A DNA stretch of 59,682 nt from the NCBI GenBank assembly GCA_029245245.1, contig JAQWPT010000013.1:1-59682 (forward strand), written 5' to 3'. Origin of the DNA: Phycisphaerales bacterium. Its GTDB lineage: Bacteria; Planctomycetota; Phycisphaerae; Phycisphaerales; SM1A02. Under the pieces are notes generated by a model. That model did no database searches. It was not told the origin of the DNA and saw only the letters and a list, made by a program, of their open reading frames with translations. The position numbers and the translations under genes were made by a program. Below, piece after piece: positions 6,274 to 24,141 of the stretch (position 1 is its first letter; every line of letters starts with the position of its first letter).

Positions 6274-6454
6274 GTGTGGGCTCCGGGTTCTTCTCTTCCA
6301 GTGAACCAGCCACGTTCTCCAGACGTGGCCGTCTCGGGAGGGGCGTTCCCCGGAGTCATGAAGCCCAACTCCCGATGCCACAGGATGATAGGAGAAATGG
6401 AGCCGCTGGGTGCTCGCCCGGTCCAATCGGCCGTGAGGCAGCTTGGAGGGGGGG

Positions 6455-7174
6455 CTACTTGCCGCTGCGGATCCAGGTGCCGCTGGTGTGCTCGGGGATG
6501 ATCACCTTGGTGATCGTCTGCTTGAACACGGTGGCGATCCAGCCCTGGTCCTTGGCGTAGTAGTCCCAGGTATCGCGCTTCACGGTGGCCAGGCCCAGGT
6601 CGGCGTCGTAGTCGGAGTAGATCCGGGTGCAGTCGATGTCCGTGCCGTCGATCTTCAGCGTGACGTCCGCATCGTGGAGGATGGAAATCGTCCAGGTGCC
6701 CGAGGCCATCTTCGAGGACGGGTTGTCGGTGTGGGTGACTGTGATCCTGCCCTTGGCCTTGACCGGCTTGCCGGGTTCAAGGTTCCTGGGGATCACCGGC
6801 AGCGGGGGGTCGAAGGTGCTCGTGCTGCCGCTGGGTGCGTCGACGGTGACTTCGCAGTGCAGGCCGTCGTCGGTGAGTTTCCAGGTGTAGGCGACGCGGT
6901 CGACCACATTGAGCTTCCAGGTCGAGTCACCCAGCGATGTAACGTCGTACGTGACCGTCTTGCCGGAATCGGTGCCGTCGATGATCGAGTACGTCGTCGT
7001 GCCCGGACTCTGGATGAAGGTCTTCTCCCAGTCATCGATGGACCCCTTCTCGACCAGGTCGCCGACGCGGTAGGTGTCGAGCGTGGGGCGTGGCTTGCCG
7101 GGGGGGACATCTGACATGCAGCCCATGGGAAGGCACAGCAGCGGAACCAGAATGGCCAGGATGGCGTTACGCAT
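6455..7174 (-). CDS. Small secreted (probable lipo-) protein, function unknown
   Basis: 239 residues from ATG 7174. The start overlaps the last codons of the upstream acetyltransferase gene (8 bp), suggesting translational coupling. The N-terminus (MRNAILAILVPLLCLPMGC) is a signal peptide ending in a relaxed lipobox (PMGC). The mature part is beta-rich, with YSIIDGTDSGKTVTYDVTSLG and GRITVTHTDNPSSKMASGTW, and no recognisable catalytic motif or family. It is the last gene of the valS-lipoprotein-phosphoesterase-GNAT cluster. Probably anchored to a membrane facing the periplasm; function not assigned. Confidence 0.75.
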   Translation of the reverse strand: MRNAILAILVPLLCLPMGCMSDVPPGKPRPTLDTYRVGDLVEKGSIDDWEKTFIQSPGTTTYSIIDGTDSGKTVTYDVTSLGDSTWKLNVVDRVAYTWKLTDDGLHCEVTVDAPSGSTSTFDPPLPVIPRNLEPGKPVKAKGRITVTHTDNPSSKMASGTWTISILHDADVTLKIDGTDIDCTRIYSDYDADLGLATVKRDTWDYYAKDQGWIATVFKQTITKVIIPEHTSGTWIRSGK

Positions 7175-7649
7175 GGGGTTCGTTGTACAGGTCGACGTAG
7201 AACTCCAGGAGCTTGTGGCCCTCTGACTCGCGCGTGCGGGAGTGGAAGAAGCCGAACTTCTTGAAAAGTTCGATGGCCGGACCACGCTCGATACGGACGT
7301 CCAGGACGATCTTCACGTACCCGTGGTCGCGGCAGAAGCCGATGGCGTGCTCCATGAGCGACGTTCCGACGCCGAGTCGCCGATGGCCTTCCTCGACACG
7401 GAGTCGCCGGACCTCGGCCACGTCATCGCGAATCTCCTGGACGCCGATCATGCCGACCACGTCGTCGGTGGCATCCGCGATCCAGAACCCGCTGGTCTCC
7501 GGCCCCTCGATGTAGGCTTCGTTGAAGTTCTCGATGTCCGCGCCGGTGTCGTTGATGCGTGTCTGGCCCTCGTAGACGCTGGCATCGAACAGCCGCCGGA
7601 TGTCCGGCAGGTCGTCGATCAATGCTCGTCGAATGGTGGGGCTGGCCAC
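7167..7649 (-). CDS. GNAT-family N-acetyltransferase
   Basis: 160 residues, the normal length for a single GNAT domain. It shows the acetyl-CoA binding motif A region (VAEVRRLRVEEGHRRLGVGTSLMEHA, with the RxxGxG-like RRLGVG loop near residues 90-100) and the later EL.KKFGFF motif B typical of the fold. Substrate unknown. It lies 27 bp downstream of the phosphoesterase gene and overlaps the following lipoprotein gene, so it is probably part of the same transcript. A cytoplasmic enzyme using acetyl-CoA is the safe statement. Confidence 0.88.
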   Translation of the reverse strand: MASPTIRRALIDDLPDIRRLFDASVYEGQTRINDTGADIENFNEAYIEGPETSGFWIADATDDVVGMIGVQEIRDDVAEVRRLRVEEGHRRLGVGTSLMEHAIGFCRDHGYVKIVLDVRIERGPAIELFKKFGFFHSRTRESEGHKLLEFYVDLYNEPHA

Positions 7650-7676
7650 GATCGGCTCCGGGAACGTTGGATGTGC

Positions 7677-8171
7677 TCACTCGGCCGCGGGCGGAAGTTC
7701 GAGCACGTCGAGCGTGTCTTCGTCCGTATCCAGCAGCGCCACAGTATACCGCGTCGCCCTTTGCAGCGCCCCGGGGTTGATCAGTCGCGTGCCATCGATG
7801 CATTCGTCGCGAAGTTCGTGGGTGTGCCCGTGCAGCAGCCACGTCACGCGGTCCGCCATGGCGACCTGCAGCAACTCGTTGCGATGACCGTGCGTGTACG
7901 CGAGGGTGTGTCCGTCGATGTCGAGGCGACCAATGGGATGATCCACCACCAGCCCGTGTTCCTCGGCGCGGCGGCGCAGTCCCGCCTCGTCCCAGTCGCA
8001 GTTGCCGAAGACCATGCGCACGTTCCGCTTCGCCATCACGTCGATCGCATCGACGTCGCCGATGTCGCCCAGGTGCAGGAACAGTTCAGCACCACGGGAT
8101 TCAAGCAGTCGAAGCGCGGATTCGATCCGGTCGACGCGGCCATGGGAGTCCGAAAGGATGCCGATGCGCAT
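7677..8171 (-). CDS. YfcE/MJ0936-type metallophosphoesterase
   Basis: 164 residues from ATG 8171 (MRIGILSDSHG). It carries the calcineurin-like metal-binding set in order: DSH near residue 8, LGDIGD near 37, GNCD near 60, HGH near 94 and GHTH near 113. Length matches the compact YfcE/MJ0936 class of phosphodiesterases. It begins 7 bp downstream of the metallopeptidase-like lipoprotein gene. The extended reading frame upstream of this Met overlaps that gene and was rejected because the protein starts exactly at the canonical beta strand. Physiological substrate unknown. Confidence 0.9.
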   Translation of the reverse strand: MRIGILSDSHGRVDRIESALRLLESRGAELFLHLGDIGDVDAIDVMAKRNVRMVFGNCDWDEAGLRRRAEEHGLVVDHPIGRLDIDGHTLAYTHGHRNELLQVAMADRVTWLLHGHTHELRDECIDGTRLINPGALQRATRYTVALLDTDEDTLDVLELPPAAE

Positions 8172-8178
8172 GGGGGCC

Positions 8179-9225
8179 TCAGCGCCATCGCATTCGGCGG
8201 CTGGTGAGTTCGTCGACCCAGGTGTCGTAGCCGGCGGCGAACTCGTCGAAGTCGTCGTTGAAGAATGCCTCGATGAACACCACGCCGGTGGCGCTGTCGG
8301 ACGGGTCATCCCGTCGTGCCGCGGCGTCGGAGCGAAGCAGTTGGCGGAACAGGTCGCCCTCGATGGCGAGCATGAGCACGTTCTGCAGGGCGGGCAGGTA
8401 GCGGGCGTCCTCGGCTTCGGTGAGGTAGCGGGCGAGGGCCCAGACCTGCGCGTAGTAGGTCAGCAGGTCGGACTTGCCCTGGCCGAGGAAGACGTGGGGG
8501 TCGCCGTCGAGCAGGTCGCGCAGGGGAATCAGGGTGCCGCTGCGCTTGGCGGTGCGAAGCCGGTAACTGCGTTCCCGGTTGGCGTCGACACTGAAGTCGA
8601 ACGTGCTGCGGCGAATGCGGAACCCTTCCATCATGGTGGCGATGCCCTCGTCCAGCCACGGGGGCAGTTGCTGCTGGAAGGTCGTCTGGGCGTACTGGTG
8701 CCAGCCTTCGTGGGCCGAGAGCGCCAAGGTGTCCCGGTCCCACATGCTGTTGTCGATGTCGTAGAGCACCGCTACCCCGTCAGCGGTAAATCCACCGCGC
8801 CCAAGGCCTTCGAACGATGAAGCCAGTTCCGGGAGCATCATCCGGGTCTTGTTCTTCCACTGGCGACGATCTCCGAAGAGGTAGGTCGCCATGGCGTGCG
8901 GTGGGGGAGGCAGTTCGCCGAGGGCGGAGCGGTATCGTTCCAGGGCCGCCTCGTAGAACTCGGGAAGGAACCCCACGAATCGCTCGTTGTCGATCGTGGT
9001 GTAGATCTCCCAGTGGGGCGTTTCGATCAGTTGTCCCTCGACGCCCATGAACTCCCAGGGCTGGGCCGATGACCAGCTGCCGTCCTCGTTGAGGGACCAG
9101 CTTCGATTCGTCGTATCGCGGGGACCGCCGGCATGCTTGGTGTGCAGGTAGGAGGAGGCGCAGCCGGAAAGAAGGGTTGCGGCTGCGACGAGCAGTATCG
9201 TGATGCAGGACGCGGAACGCTTCAT
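8179..9225 (-). CDS. Lipoprotein with zincin motif (HEGWH, DUF1570-like)
   Basis: 348 residues with a lipoprotein signal (ATLLSGC, Cys22). A putative zinc site is visible: His172-Glu173-x-x-His176 in SAHEGWHQY and Glu193 in PPWLDEGIA, the arrangement of gluzincin peptidases (HExxH plus downstream E in a WLxEG motif) seen in planctomycetal DUF1570-type proteins. Start ATG overlaps the valS stop as ATGA (9222-9225), so translation is probably coupled to valyl-tRNA synthetase. Predicted membrane-anchored, periplasmic metalloprotease-like protein; activity and substrate are not established. Confidence 0.8.
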   Translation of the reverse strand: MKRSASCITILLVAAATLLSGCASSYLHTKHAGGPRDTTNRSWSLNEDGSWSSAQPWEFMGVEGQLIETPHWEIYTTIDNERFVGFLPEFYEAALERYRSALGELPPPPHAMATYLFGDRRQWKNKTRMMLPELASSFEGLGRGGFTADGVAVLYDIDNSMWDRDTLALSAHEGWHQYAQTTFQQQLPPWLDEGIATMMEGFRIRRSTFDFSVDANRERSYRLRTAKRSGTLIPLRDLLDGDPHVFLGQGKSDLLTYYAQVWALARYLTEAEDARYLPALQNVLMLAIEGDLFRQLLRSDAAARRDDPSDSATGVVFIEAFFNDDFDEFAAGYDTWVDELTSRRMRWR

Positions 9226-19265: not shown

Positions 19266-19846
19266 TGCCACGGATCATCGCAGGAACCCATCGCTCCCGC
19301 GCCCTCGAGACGATCGAGGGCATGTCCACGCGCCCCTACACCGATCGGGTCAAGGAGTCGGTCTTCAACATTCTCCGGGGGCACATCGAGGGAGCCAATG
19401 TTCTCGACCTCTTTTCGGGCATCGGGACCATGGGACTTGAAGCAGCCAGCCGCGGGGCGGCATCCGTCCTGATGGTCGAGCGGGATCGCCGGGTCTTCGC
19501 CGCCCTTGAGCGGAACGTGGAGATGCTCAATGCCGATGACGTTGCCACTGCGATCCAGGGCGATGCATTGTCCTCGCTGCCGATCCTGCGTTCACCACGG
19601 CCGTTGCACATCATCTTCGTCGATCCTCCCTACGCGATGATGCAGGACGACGGGATCAGGGCCAGGATCCTGCAGCAGGTCCACCGTGTGTCGGAGTTGC
19701 TCGACGACGGAGGATTCATCGTGCTGCGGACACCCTTGAAACACCCAAGGGTGGACCATTCCATCGAGGGGCTGGCCGGGCCCGAAGTGCGTGGCTACCA
19801 GAAACAGCAGGCAGTGCTCTTCTACGGACGCGAGGATTCGTCATGA
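19265..19846 (+). CDS. rsmD: 16S rRNA (guanine(966)-N(2))-methyltransferase
   Basis: 193 residues from ATG 19265. RsmD hallmarks: RIIAGTHRSRALETIEG near the N-terminus, RPYTDRVKESVFNIL, the SAM-binding LDLFSGIGTMGLEAASRG (about 46-63) and the catalytic DPPY motif (near residue 121). Methylates G966 of 16S rRNA in the 30S subunit. The open frame upstream was rejected because the family begins here. Its stop overlaps the start of the CCA-adding enzyme gene as ATGA. Confidence 0.95.
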   Translation: MPRIIAGTHRSRALETIEGMSTRPYTDRVKESVFNILRGHIEGANVLDLFSGIGTMGLEAASRGAASVLMVERDRRVFAALERNVEMLNADDVATAIQGDALSSLPILRSPRPLHIIFVDPPYAMMQDDGIRARILQQVHRVSELLDDGGFIVLRTPLKHPRVDHSIEGLAGPEVRGYQKQQAVLFYGREDSS

Positions 19847-21072
19847 CGAGTAGTCCGCGTCCCATCCGTGACGTCGCCGTCGACCTGGTACGTCGGCTGC
19901 AGGATGCAGGGCACGTGGCCTACTTCGCCGGTGGATGCGTTCGTGACCAGTTGCTGGGTTTCGAGCCTCTTGAGTACGACATCGCCACCGATGCGGTTCC
20001 CGATCAACTCAAGGCGATCTTTCCGGGATCCCATCTGGTGGGGGAGTCCTTTGGCGTGGTCCTGGTGCGTTCAGGTGGCCACACGCTCGACATTGCCACC
20101 TTTCGGGCCGAGGGCGCGTATTCAGACCACCGCCATCCGGATACGGTGAGTTTCTGCGATGCACGGGAGGATTCCGGAAGACGGGATTTCACCATCAACG
20201 GGATCTTCTACGATCCAGTGACCGACACCCACATCGACTACCACGAAGGACAGGCCGACCTCAAGCGGGGAGTGCTTCGGTCCATCGGTGTGCCCGGCGA
20301 TCGATTCAACGAGGATCATCTTCGCATGCTGCGAGCCGTCCGGTTCGCCGCCCGCTTCGGCCTGGACATCGATCCGGATACGGCTGCGGCCATCCGTGAA
20401 CATGCCGGTGAACTCGGCGGCGTGTCACGCGAACGCGTCGGGATCGAGGTCCGCCGCATGGCCGTGGAGGGGAACTGGGCGTCGGCCGTGGTCTTGATGG
20501 CGGAGTTGGGGCTGGAGACATCGGTGCTTGGTTGCGCCGCCGGCGTGGAAGCATGGCCGCGGTCAACCCACCTGGAAACGCACTGTCCGCGTGAACCTGG
20601 ACGGCACCAGGCGGCGATCGCCGCCTGGCTGCTCGATCGCCACGGGTCGAATGCCGCGCTGGACGCGTCCCAACTGGATGATGTCGGTGATCGGCTGGTC
20701 AGTTCCAACCAGGATCGGGCGATGTTGCGTGACATCATCGAGACGCATGCTCTTGTGCAGGCGCAGTGGGAGGGTGCCTCGGTGGCCTTTCAGAAACGAC
20801 TGGCAGTCCGTGGGGGGTTCCCCTGGGCCGTGTGCCTGCTGGCGGCGACATGTCCGGAGGATGCGGCACGGATCGATCGCCGGGTCGAGGAACTGGCTCG
20901 GACGGGGCTCCAGCCCAAGCCTCTTCTGTGTGGAGACGACCTCATTTCGGCCGGGCTGGTTCCCGGGCCTGGTTTCTCCCGGGTCCTGGATGCGGTCTAC
21001 GATGCCCAGTTGGAGGGTCGAATCGGAACCATCGACGAGGCCTTGGCCCTGGTCCGCTCCATCGAGCCATGA
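19843..21072 (+). CDS. CCA-adding tRNA nucleotidyltransferase / poly(A) polymerase family
   Basis: 409 residues. N-terminal class II nucleotidyltransferase: AGGCVRDQLLG (residues 28-38), the metal-binding YDIATDA (about 45-51), RRDFTING (near 107) and the neck motif EDHLRMLRAVRFAARF. The C-terminal half is helical and shows no clear HD domain. The enzyme adds or repairs the 3' CCA of tRNAs, needed here because neither tRNA in the window encodes CCA; some planctomycetal members could instead be poly(A) polymerases and sequence alone does not decide. Coupled to rsmD by ATGA overlap. Confidence 0.9.
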   Translation: MTSSPRPIRDVAVDLVRRLQDAGHVAYFAGGCVRDQLLGFEPLEYDIATDAVPDQLKAIFPGSHLVGESFGVVLVRSGGHTLDIATFRAEGAYSDHRHPDTVSFCDAREDSGRRDFTINGIFYDPVTDTHIDYHEGQADLKRGVLRSIGVPGDRFNEDHLRMLRAVRFAARFGLDIDPDTAAAIREHAGELGGVSRERVGIEVRRMAVEGNWASAVVLMAELGLETSVLGCAAGVEAWPRSTHLETHCPREPGRHQAAIAAWLLDRHGSNAALDASQLDDVGDRLVSSNQDRAMLRDIIETHALVQAQWEGASVAFQKRLAVRGGFPWAVCLLAATCPEDAARIDRRVEELARTGLQPKPLLCGDDLISAGLVPGPGFSRVLDAVYDAQLEGRIGTIDEALALVRSIEP

Positions 21073-21250: not shown

Positions 21251-22777
21251 ATGGGGTATTTCATGAACGTCTTCTCCAAGATTCGCGGCACATTCGTCCT
21301 TCTTGCACTGGTTCTTGCCACGGCGATTTCCTCGGATGCGGCTGCGGCAACAGAGGATGTGCTCCATATGGCTGACGGCCGGGTCCTGCACGGGCAGATC
21401 GTCAGCGAGACGCCGCAGGCCATTGTCTTTGACTACCTGAATGAAGACCTGGGCATCTCGGTCACCATGAATCTGCCCAAGGCCGCGATCCTGAAGGTGG
21501 AACGCGACGTGGAGGTGGCGGATCCGGCTGCTGAGCAGGCTCCGGAGACGAAGACGAGCTCCTCTTCGGGCGCCAAGGCGGCCAGGGAAGGCTCAACCAT
21601 CACCGAGCGAACACGGGCTACCAAGGCCACCAGTGATGCCGCGAAGTTCTACATCATCGAGATGAGCGGACAGGTCGGAACCGACATCCGCGCGTCCGTC
21701 TACGAGGACGTGATCGAAGATATCAAGACCGTGCATCCCGACGTGGTCATCCTCAAGATCGACAGCAAGATGCTCGGCGACAGCATGCTTTCCTACTGGG
21801 TCGGCGCCGAAGTCGATGAGGACAGGAAGCAGGATCCGTTTCGCCGCATGGAAACCATCATGTCCGTGATGGACGACGAGCTGGAACTGGTCAAGTCCTT
21901 CCACCACGAACTGCCCAAGGACATCCGGCAGGTCGTCTGGGTGCATGATGCAACCGGTCCCGCTTCGCTTCTTGCCTTGGCCTGGCCGGACATGTACATG
22001 ACTCCCAATGCAGATCTTGGCAGCATGGGTGAGATCTGGTCCATGACCCAGTTCCCCGACCTCGACGTTCGCAGCAAGATGGAGAAGGCGTGGTTCAGCA
22101 CCGCCAAGGGAATCATGCAGTTCGGAAACCACTCCGACAACTTCATGGAAGGCATGCTTCGTCCCAAGTCTCCGTTCAGTTTCAGCTGCAAAGGCCGGAA
22201 GCCCATCTGGTACAACAGCTATCAGGGCGATTTGCCGATTCAGGCCAGCGAGTTCGGGTACCAGGCCGAGATTCGTAACTTCATCGGCGGCGGCGGCCAA
22301 ATCGATCATGGCCTGGAGTTCTCCTCCAGGATCTGCGAGGACTTTCTCATCAGCGACGGAACGGCCGAGACCCTCGAGGATCTCGCCCTCCTGCTGGATG
22401 AACGCCAGTACCAGGTCTTGGAGACCAAGGCGATCCAGGAGTCTGCCGAATACAAGGAAGATTGGCGAGAGCGGTTCGAGCGAACTCGCAAAGCCTTCAT
22501 GGACTTCCGCAAGTACATGGGGCGAGCAGATGGCGACTATGCCCTTGAGAACCTTCAGAAGGCCAAGAAGGAGCTCGCTCGAGTCATTGCAGGAGTGCGG
22601 ACCAATGAGTCCGTCGCCGTTCGCTTCAAGAGCATGTTCCGTCTCGATCAGATCCAGCTGGAGATCGAGATGGAAAAGATCAAGTCGACGATCCGCCAGA
22701 TGACTCGTGGCGGCGGAGGCGGTGGCGGTGGCGGAGCCCGTGGCGGCGGTGGTATTGGTGGCGGCCCACGCCCTTGA
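21251..22777 (+). CDS. Secreted ClpP/crotonase-fold protein with Gly-rich tail
   Basis: 508 residues from ATG 21251 (AAGAG upstream; ATG 21263 is an alternative). Signal peptide to about residue 30, then a small beta domain (LHMADGRVLHGQIVSETPQAIVFDY), a Ser/Ala/Glu linker and a domain with the ClpP/SppA/NfeD topology (AKFYIIEMSGQVGTDIR..., VVILKIDSKM, IRQVVWVHDATGPASLLALAWPDMYMTPNADLGSMGEI). It ends in a charged coiled-coil and a RGGGGGGGGGARGGGGIGGG tail. I cannot find a clear Ser nucleophile in the SAG-type position. The next gene is a paralogue. Probably periplasmic; function unknown, possibly a pseudo-peptidase or membrane-bending/scaffold protein. Confidence 0.72.
   Translation: MGYFMNVFSKIRGTFVLLALVLATAISSDAAAATEDVLHMADGRVLHGQIVSETPQAIVFDYLNEDLGISVTMNLPKAAILKVERDVEVADPAAEQAPETKTSSSSGAKAAREGSTITERTRATKATSDAAKFYIIEMSGQVGTDIRASVYEDVIEDIKTVHPDVVILKIDSKMLGDSMLSYWVGAEVDEDRKQDPFRRMETIMSVMDDELELVKSFHHELPKDIRQVVWVHDATGPASLLALAWPDMYMTPNADLGSMGEIWSMTQFPDLDVRSKMEKAWFSTAKGIMQFGNHSDNFMEGMLRPKSPFSFSCKGRKPIWYNSYQGDLPIQASEFGYQAEIRNFIGGGGQIDHGLEFSSRICEDFLISDGTAETLEDLALLLDERQYQVLETKAIQESAEYKEDWRERFERTRKAFMDFRKYMGRADGDYALENLQKAKKELARVIAGVRTNESVAVRFKSMFRLDQIQLEIEMEKIKSTIRQMTRGGGGGGGGGARGGGGIGGGPRP
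22705..22770 (+). repeat. Glycine-codon-rich tail (GGN repeats)
   Basis: Runs of GGC/GGA/GGT codons encode the Gly/Arg-rich C-terminus of the preceding protein. Synonymous codons vary, so selection on the protein is more likely than slippage alone. Confidence 0.6.
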
Positions 22778-22824
22778 TCAAATCTGGAACGAACGGACGA
22801 GGCACATAATTTCGAGTGGAACCA

Positions 22825-24141
22825 ATGATGAAGCACTTCTTGATCGCATCCTGCCTGCTTGTACTCCTTGCCGCATCCGCGGCCTTTGCTGCAAGCGTGA
22901 CCGTACTGCTGCCAAACGGGTCGACCTGGCGTGGTCATACTGATGACCACGTGATGATCGAATACACCGCCGGCGCAGTGAAGAACACCGTCAAGGGTGT
23001 TCTGACTCGATCCGGTGACCTGTACCTGGTCATCAAGAAGGATGACGGATCCGGCGAAGTGCCGATCTTCCGGAGCGATATCGTCGGCATTCAGGTGCTC
23101 GACGGCGATGCGCCTCCCGCTGCAAAGCCCGACACGCCGTCTGATGCCGGCTCCGATTCTGCAGGTGGGCCCAAGGCGGCTCCCGACGCACCGGTCGAGG
23201 AGACGGAGACGCTTGAAATCGATGACAAGTACGGCGTGTTCTACCTTCCGCTTCGTGAAATGGTCGGCTTGGAGTTTCGTCCCGAGGAGATTCAGATGAT
23301 CGTGGCCGAGGCCGATGAGGCCGGGCCTGGCCAGACCATCATCCTGGACATCGAATCCGGCGGCGGCAGCGTATTTGAATTCATCGTTCTCGCAGAAGTC
23401 ATTCGGGATGCCAAGAAGCGCCACCAGTTCGTGGCCTGGGTCGGGCATGCCATTTCTGCCGCGGCAGGAACCGCATTGTGCTGCGATCGGATCGTATGGA
23501 AGTCGCATGGGGCGTTGGGCGCCATCACCATGCACAGTGGCGGCCAGCCAGTCCCCGACGAGATGGAAGAGAAGTGGGTCACCATGCTCAAGGAGATTCT
23601 CCGTGAGAGTGGTCATTCACCACACTGGGCTCGGCCCATGGTCCGCAACGACAGCTGGATCTCCTACATCAAGGACCCGGTCACCGGCGAGTGTGAGTAC
23701 TTCGGTACACCGCAGGGGATTCAAGGTGAGGTCATACTGTCCAATCTGGGTGAGAACGTGGTACTCAACAAGGAAGAGGCGATTGAGTGCTGCCTTGCCT
23801 ATGGATTGGCGGACAACAAGGAAGAACTTGCGGCCGTGCTTGACCTGCCGGGCTGGAAGGATCTGGGCACGGGCGAGAAGATGTCCAAGAGCTGGCTCGA
23901 TACCGTCGCCAGCTGCCAGGAAGACATGCGGCGTACGAGAGCAAAACTGGCTCTCCTTGGTGAGTACGAACCGATGATTGCGATCCGCAAGGAGATCGAG
24001 ATCTACAAGCGATGGCTTCGCTGGTGGAAACGTGCTCCCAACGCGATGGGTGGTGCAGCGCCGCCTCCGGAGCAGATCGAACGCATGATCGAGGAACTCA
24101 AGCTTGAGCTGCGAAGAATGGCCGATGCCAACCGCAACTGA
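22825..24141 (+). CDS. Secreted ClpP/crotonase-fold (NfeD/SppA-like) protein
   Basis: 438 residues from ATG 22825 (an in-frame GTG at 22816 and ATG 22828 are alternatives). Signal peptide ends near AAFA. After a beta domain and a Pro/Ala linker comes a ClpP-like domain: YLPLREMVG, GQTIILDIESGGGSVFE (the GGG/S oxyanion strand), AWVGHAISAAAGTALCCDRIVWKSHGALGAI. In archaeal and bacterial NfeD/SppA-type peptidases the nucleophile is the Ser of a SAGT-like motif; here the aligned residue appears to be Ala (AAAGT), from memory of the family. C-terminus is coiled coil. The paralogue lies 47 bp upstream in the same operon. Confidence 0.75.
   Translation: MMKHFLIASCLLVLLAASAAFAASVTVLLPNGSTWRGHTDDHVMIEYTAGAVKNTVKGVLTRSGDLYLVIKKDDGSGEVPIFRSDIVGIQVLDGDAPPAAKPDTPSDAGSDSAGGPKAAPDAPVEETETLEIDDKYGVFYLPLREMVGLEFRPEEIQMIVAEADEAGPGQTIILDIESGGGSVFEFIVLAEVIRDAKKRHQFVAWVGHAISAAAGTALCCDRIVWKSHGALGAITMHSGGQPVPDEMEEKWVTMLKEILRESGHSPHWARPMVRNDSWISYIKDPVTGECEYFGTPQGIQGEVILSNLGENVVLNKEEAIECCLAYGLADNKEELAAVLDLPGWKDLGTGEKMSKSWLDTVASCQEDMRRTRAKLALLGEYEPMIAIRKEIEIYKRWLRWWKRAPNAMGGAAPPPEQIERMIEELKLELRRMADANRN

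Follow-up and report, generated by a model that had tools for sequence, protein, structure and literature searches.

Tandem ClpP-Fold Paralogues of a Phycisphaerales Bacterium with a Ser-Lys Dyad Apparently Divided between Two Genes

Introduction

Two neighbouring genes of a Phycisphaerales bacterium, here called A and B, encode proteins with a ClpP-type domain that an initial annotation described as lacking the serine nucleophile of their protease relatives, which raises the question of whether the pair is inert or whether the catalytic residues are distributed over both proteins. The genes lie on contig JAQWPT010000013.1 of a 2.7 Mb assembly in 38 contigs (GCA_029245245.1), of which positions 1 to 59,682 were analysed (the whole stretch of 59,682 nucleotides, referred to as the window). 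They stand head to tail, A first, with 47 bases between them:

21263..22777, + strand: gene A, the proposed Lys-donor paralogue, 504 amino acids, alternative start ATG at 21251, conserved in relatives
22825..24141, + strand: gene B, the proposed Ser-donor paralogue, 438 amino acids, alternative start GTG at 22816, Pfam NfeD1b_N at 40.0 bits and E 4.1e-10

Judged by sequence, A and B are paralogues (profile comparison, probability 100, E 1.2e-56, 392 columns aligned). We propose, at a probability of about 0.6, that the two proteins assemble into a hetero-oligomeric serine protease that is exported and belongs to the NfeD/SppA type (ClpP fold), with the catalytic dyad divided between the chains. 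B would provide the nucleophile Ser211 and the oxyanion Gly-Gly, and Lys272 of A would act as the general base from the other side of the A-B interface, each chain alone being an incomplete site. The homology, residue pattern, pairing and fold reported below come from sequence comparison and structure prediction; export, the heteromer, catalysis and the pairing of Lys with Ser are what we infer from them.

Catalytic Positions of A and B

The register of the catalytic columns was set from 15 other relatives with one invariant Ser and one invariant Lys. In the alignment of these 15 with the NfeD protease 1510-N the invariant Ser fell at Ser97 and the invariant Lys at Lys138, positions at which the S97A and K138A entries show Ala. 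Ser97 and Lys138 are the dyad of 1510-N, and the S97A and K138A mutants are both inactive, as stated in passages of PMC3795559. The corresponding residues of the window proteins are:

21956..21958, + strand: A Gly232, at the position of the nucleophile Ser (profile alignments)
22076..22078, + strand: A Lys272, at the position of 1510-N Lys138 (54/54 A; alignment of A to the other relatives joined to that of the other relatives to 1510-N)
23362..23367, + strand: B Gly180-Gly181, oxyanion-type GG motif (54/54 B)
23455..23457, + strand: B Ser211, putative nucleophile (53/54 B; 80/80 B; alignment to SppA and 1510-N)
23560..23562, + strand: B Glu246, at the column where the other relatives have the catalytic Lys (hhalign, read by hand from the printed alignment)

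Ser211 of AWVGHAISAAAGT in B aligned with the catalytic Ser of Bacillus subtilis SppA and with Ser97 of 1510-N. When the B profile was compared with solved structures, the Ser of AIS coincided with the Ser of AASGGY in B. subtilis SppA (3rst; E 1.7e-6 for the SppA match) and with that of AASAGT in 1510-N; with a profile of related proteins, the nucleophile column was occupied by Ala in the S97A entry 6m4b. An Ala at the Ser column of B, as given in the initial annotation, was rejected as a register error of two residues, since the profile alignments place the Ser of AIS on the SppA and 1510-N Ser and the S97A entry confirms which column holds Ser. At the Lys column of B the residue is Glu246, or Met247 if the alignment is anchored on the next conserved Gly.

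For A, the reported absence of a nucleophile Ser was right in substance, the aligned residue being Gly232 of DATGPAS. The claim that both members lack the serine did not hold, since B keeps Ser and the oxyanion glycines. An intact dyad within one chain, which had been named as an observation that would speak against the initial annotation, was present in neither window A nor window B; the dyad looks divided. The pair had been called "non-catalytic or differently catalytic": with Ser and the oxyanion glycines kept in B and Lys kept in A, "differently" fits better and "non-catalytic" less well.

Residue Pattern across Homologues

The pattern was followed in 154 aligned homologue rows, obtained from 157 candidates (10 of them picked by hand) after removal of three that were too short or had a gap at the Ser column. 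Rows were assigned to A, B or the other relatives by profile score, with neither adjacency of A and B nor the solitary state of the other relatives checked row by row, and the set includes some open frames that are falsely extended at their upstream end or truncated by contig ends. Four genomes of a lineage in which the two genes are unlinked (see below) were counted apart from the main 54 A and 54 B.

All 54 A rows had Lys without Ser, the Ser column holding Gly in 49, Ala in 3, Val in 1 and Gln in 1. Among the 54 B rows, 51 had Ser without Lys, 2 had both and 1 had neither. The 38 other relatives, NfeD1b among them, had Ser and Lys in 32 cases, Ser only in 3 and neither in 3. Both dyad residues were thus found in one chain in 0/54 A and 2/54 B, as against 32/38 other relatives. 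The oxyanion-type GG was present in 54/54 B and 37/38 other relatives and in 0/54 A. In a collection of 80 loci from named genomes, which shares some genomes with the 154-row set, the Gly of A was found in 67/67 readable rows and its Lys in 69/69 (70 A rows), and the Ser of B in 80/80.

The only Ser-less row of the 54 B comes from L068:8027-9058, where a B-like gene stands as a third next to an A-B pair and has Gly at the Ser column. Three other relatives with neither Ser nor Lys (L086, L098 and L099) are possible pseudoenzymes.

The main alternative is that B is active as a protease by itself or in a homo-oligomer, using a different general base or none, and that A serves as a pseudoprotease subunit with a shaping or regulatory role towards B, for which ClpR beside ClpP is the comparison. 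That A lacks both Ser and the oxyanion GG while B keeps both agrees with such a role, as do the Lys250 near the site in window B and a Thr235 that is nearly invariant in B (51/54) and less so in the other relatives (11/38). The alternative leaves unexplained, however, the presence of Lys272 in 54/54 A and in 4/4 A of the unlinked lineage, and the loss from B of a Lys present in 32/38 other relatives. Moreover, no Lys or His column of B was as conserved as Ser211: the best were His200 (40/50) and Lys197 (37/50), both of which precede Ser; His200 was the sole His column of B at 70% or above, and no conserved His was found after Ser. Lys occurred at Ser+39 in 4 of 50 B rows, and at Ser+40 and Ser+41 in none. 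We regard this explanation as unlikely, at something like one chance in five.

The reading of the initial annotation, in which both proteins would be non-catalytic and their coiled coils would assemble them into a scaffold or ring in the periplasm, can draw on the long C-terminal helices of A and B and on the lack of one dyad residue at the aligned columns in each window protein. Near-invariance of Ser211 and Gly180-Gly181 in B and invariance of Lys272 in A are not expected of a scaffold. Since B has retained Ser together with the oxyanion glycines, and A its Lys, an inert scaffold is the less well supported interpretation, and we consider it improbable.

Pairing, Distribution and Origin

Loci were collected with the B profile, so that the sample leans to the family of the window. 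Among the 80 named loci, A lay directly upstream of B in 70, 5 were cut at a contig edge and 5 had B without A; the co-occurrence suggested in the initial annotation was thus confirmed in 70/75 informative loci. A-B is a real, conserved pair of ClpP-fold paralogues.

The 80 loci carry the titles Phycisphaerales, Phycisphaerae, other planctomycetes and, in a few cases, "uncultured bacterium". Metagenome bins with the pair at L219, L221, L224, L232 and L235 bear titles (Phycisphaera mikurensis, Singulisphaera or Kuenenia) that look doubtful. Used singly as queries, window A found 79 and window B 82 of 101 relatives at E ≤ 0.001, counts that include weak hits on other relatives. An A profile (A2) scored above 240 bits in 14/150 genomes sampled from the class, all of families f1, f2 and f4 of the window's order, and in 5/199 genomes sampled from the phylum, all in that order. 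In family f3 the A-B pair occurs together with the third gene mentioned above (L068).

In a midpoint-rooted tree of the 154 rows, built after removal of the Ser and Lys columns and with support from the Shimodaira-Hasegawa-like approximate likelihood ratio test (SH-aLRT), A and B formed sister clades (82 and 93) that were split from 37/38 other relatives at 98. The odd relative L098 was placed beside A and B. Over 58 loci the distances within A and within B were correlated (rank correlation 0.84, and 0.80 allowing for the neighbouring CCA gene), as against 0.10 between A and the CCA gene allowing for B.

These relationships are consistent with an origin in which an ancestral single-gene Ser-Lys protease would have been duplicated, followed by complementary loss in the two copies. 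Such loss is directly testable with two point mutants.

Lineage with Unlinked Genes

In five related genomes B lies away from A, just behind the 23S and 5S rRNA genes (L080:9860-11182, L166, L167, L169 and L172), and these are the five loci that have B without A. A was found elsewhere in 4/5 of the genomes, in one of them (G035) still at a locus of the window type; in the fifth genome, G230, A was not found. In this lineage B has Ser only in 4/4, and A has both Ser and Lys in 4/4, without GG.

On the tree the four A rows of this lineage nest inside Gly-bearing A, and regain of the Ser is therefore favoured over its retention. An approximately unbiased (AU) test, on a tree of 110 rows that held 52 of the 54 other A and every third B and left out four odd relatives, did not reject all other A as one clade (p 0.192). 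Because it possibly represents one evolutionary event, the lineage is suggestive only.

A stricter form of the proposal can be put forward at even odds: the pair would be an obligate two-gene protease in which, through complementary loss after duplication, one paralogue is donor of Ser and the oxyanion motif only and the other of Lys only, and A would have regained Ser where B lies behind the rRNA operon, apart from A. If this is true, the unlinked lineage offers a natural test of the way in which a divided active site becomes fixed and is undone.

Domains and Folds

The initial annotation had described a tandem pair with a common architecture of signal peptide, small beta domain, linker, ClpP-type domain and C-terminal helices, and AlphaFold models of A and of a close B homologue bear this out, the signal peptides being putative. 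The window A model was based on a 41-row alignment (mean predicted local distance difference test score (pLDDT) 82.3, predicted template modelling score (pTM) 0.69). The N-terminal stretches of A and B, judged by eye from the sequence, resemble signal peptides, and both proteins are probably exported. The domains are:

21350..21517, + strand: A residues 30-85, a small barrel of five strands that follows the putative signal peptide, probably Sm/Hfq-like (AlphaFold strands; Hfq chains in Foldseek)
21632..22420, + strand: A residues 124-386, ClpP/NfeD-type domain that lacks the oxyanion motif SPGG (fold match to 1510-N; GG kept in 0/54 A)
22427..22711, + strand: A residues 389-483, long C-terminal helices, coiled-coil-like (AlphaFold)
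22712..22774, + strand: A residues 484-504, Gly-rich tail with Arg (sequence; Gly columns)
23230..23859, + strand: B residues 136-345, ClpP/NfeD-type domain, borders approximate (Pfam; fold of close homologue)
23887..24132, + strand: B residues 355-436, C-terminal helices, borders approximate (AlphaFold of homologue)

The nearest fold to the ClpP-type domain of A, by structure comparison of the AlphaFold model, was 1510-N (Z 15.7, 179 residues aligned, root-mean-square deviation (rmsd) 2.6), followed by B. subtilis SppA (Z 13.9). The B domain, in the read-through model of the close homologue L165 described below, matched 1510-N at Z 21.4 and SppA at Z 15.2. By sequence, B matched the Pfam NfeD1b N-terminal ClpP-like domain exactly at the cut-off (40.0 against 40 bits), and A matched no Pfam family above cut-off. 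In searches of the PDB with one protein as query, nothing related to B was found, and the matches of A were confined to coiled coils or Gly-rich stretches. The A profile did not reach a ClpP-fold chain there by sequence either, so that the fold of A rests on its profile alignments to B and the other relatives and on the AlphaFold model.

Reuse of the ClpP fold for another reaction, of acyl-transfer or esterase-like type, with Ser and Lys in different roles, would agree with the enoyl-CoA hydratase-type chains and RpfF that appear lower in the fold-search lists. The best matches in these lists are nevertheless the Ser-Lys proteases 1510-N and SppA at the Z values given above, and we hold this explanation to be very improbable.

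The model of L165 is that of an artificial read-through A-B chain (AlphaFold; 40 rows, pLDDT 80.8, pTM 0.72). Residues 5-755 of this model, which include both domains, matched E. coli SppA (3bf0_C) with 350 residues aligned, Z 14.1 and rmsd 7.1, and the model agrees with a predicted arrangement in which A takes the place of the first half of SppA and B that of the second.

In A, a disordered linker joins the barrel to the ClpP-type domain (AlphaFold). Hfq chains were matched by Foldseek of the A model over 52-69 columns; the matched model range was not printed, and the matches presumably belong to the N-terminal barrel. The cytochrome Kustd1711 was matched over a short stretch alongside them. 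The N-terminal part of the A profile, taken alone, also hit several further open frames in the class, and the barrel (21350-21517) is perhaps a reused planctomycete domain. The Gly-rich tail noted in the initial annotation is real, its Gly columns being 78-82% conserved in 45 A rows.

Evaluation of the Divided Dyad

Several observations weigh against a dyad divided between A and B. Window B has Lys250 at Ser+39, one residue off the usual spacing, and in four close B relatives this position is Lys in one and Arg in three. Lys was found at the aligned column in 2/54 B and 9/80 B, in a loop of uncertain alignment, and six of the 38 other relatives also lack it there. The combination of Ser and Lys in A of the unlinked lineage, still without GG, is not predicted by a simple divided model. 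The fused model tethers the chains, its match to SppA has an rmsd of 7.1, and single domains reach a similar Z. Finally, Lys272 could be kept for structure.

With these points taken into account, a protease divided between A and B remains the reading that we prefer. Since neither chain alone has a complete site, activity may be switched on by assembly, and the arrangement, if true, would be a safe way to keep an exported protease inactive until both halves meet. More generally, the assignment of a gene as having "lost the nucleophile" needs the partner gene in view.

Genomic Context

Upstream of A in the window lies its usual neighbour:

19843..21072, + strand: gene of the CCA-adding enzyme/poly(A) polymerase type (Pfam PF01743, E 1.3e-32)

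Downstream of the pair are a gene for an FHA protein, on the opposite strand, and a Kdo transferase gene (Pfam). A neighbour survey of 97 loci, 4 of them repeating another, replaced an earlier count polluted by shadow frames. Two main locus types were found, 28 loci with a Kdo transferase or FHA gene (the window type) and 38, including one repeat, with SPFH genes downstream; 31/97 had neither in the fetched flank, some flanks being short. The CCA-adding-type gene was upstream of the pair in 77/97 loci and in both locus types. The source genome also holds a second A-B pair (L062, G000:C30; A2 at 6369-7529, B2 at 7584-8891), which is followed by three SPFH genes (Band_7).

Passages of PMC2636767 describe the association of NfeD and SPFH genes in operons as a known one, and a link to SPFH proteins is for this reason plausible, by analogy, for the SPFH-type loci. 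SPFH queries gave no match in the window, and neither the window nor the locus survey yielded anything tying the window pair to SPFH. As a guess, the pair may serve to turn over proteins or peptides of the envelope, in the SPFH locus type perhaps together with SPFH proteins.

Comparison with Known Systems

If the analogy holds, A-B would work like SppA or 1510-N. No report of a divided dyad or of the A-B family was found in the open-access literature, among the matches listed. The 1510-N/NfeD1b (STOPP) proteases (Pfam PF25145) are the best fold match of A and of the B homologue, and the Ser and Lys positions correspond to Ser97 and Lys138. In 1510-N K138A the two position-138 residues of the dimer are very near each other, according to passages of PMC3795559. 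Unlike in these proteases, the dyad of A-B appears split over two genes, with Gly in place of Ser in window A and Glu in place of Lys in window B, and the A-B proteins carry a small additional barrel as well as long helices at the C-terminus. The NfeD membrane domain and the C-terminal partner-binding domain were not reported in A or B (Pfam, E up to 10); both are present in the source genome's own NfeD1b (L001). The NfeD1b N-terminal domain scored 40.0 bits in B, at the cut-off, had no match in A, and scored 104.3 in the other relative L117. Because they lack the single-chain dyad, the membrane domain and the C-terminal domain, A and B were not filed as NfeD1b.

ClpP has a Ser-His-Asp triad within one chain, and ClpP/ClpR and ClpP1/ClpP2 are mixed rings of ClpP-fold paralogues, some of them inactive. 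In contrast to these, neither window protein has a full catalytic set. The ClpP (S14) triad is absent from B, which has no conserved His after Ser, and its CLP_protease score (15.3 bits) is below the cut-off of 20.2.

The SppA fold and Ser motif are found in B, and A shares the fold without the Ser. In E. coli SppA, Lys209 comes from one half of the chain and Ser409 from the other, and the order of A and B would match these halves. E. coli SppA uses a Ser-Lys dyad, and in B. subtilis SppA, similarly to what is proposed here, the active sites are built by two adjacent monomers (passages of PMC9360617 and PMC7568657, respectively). Unlike SppA, the pair is encoded by two genes, A and B, with each protein specialised for a single dyad residue; the Pfam match of B is to NfeD1b and not to SppA, and profiles of other NfeD1b-type relatives can be aligned to both A and B. 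Active sites to which identical subunits contribute jointly are known in this family, whereas here the halves appear to be assigned to different genes, which are kept in four families of one order.

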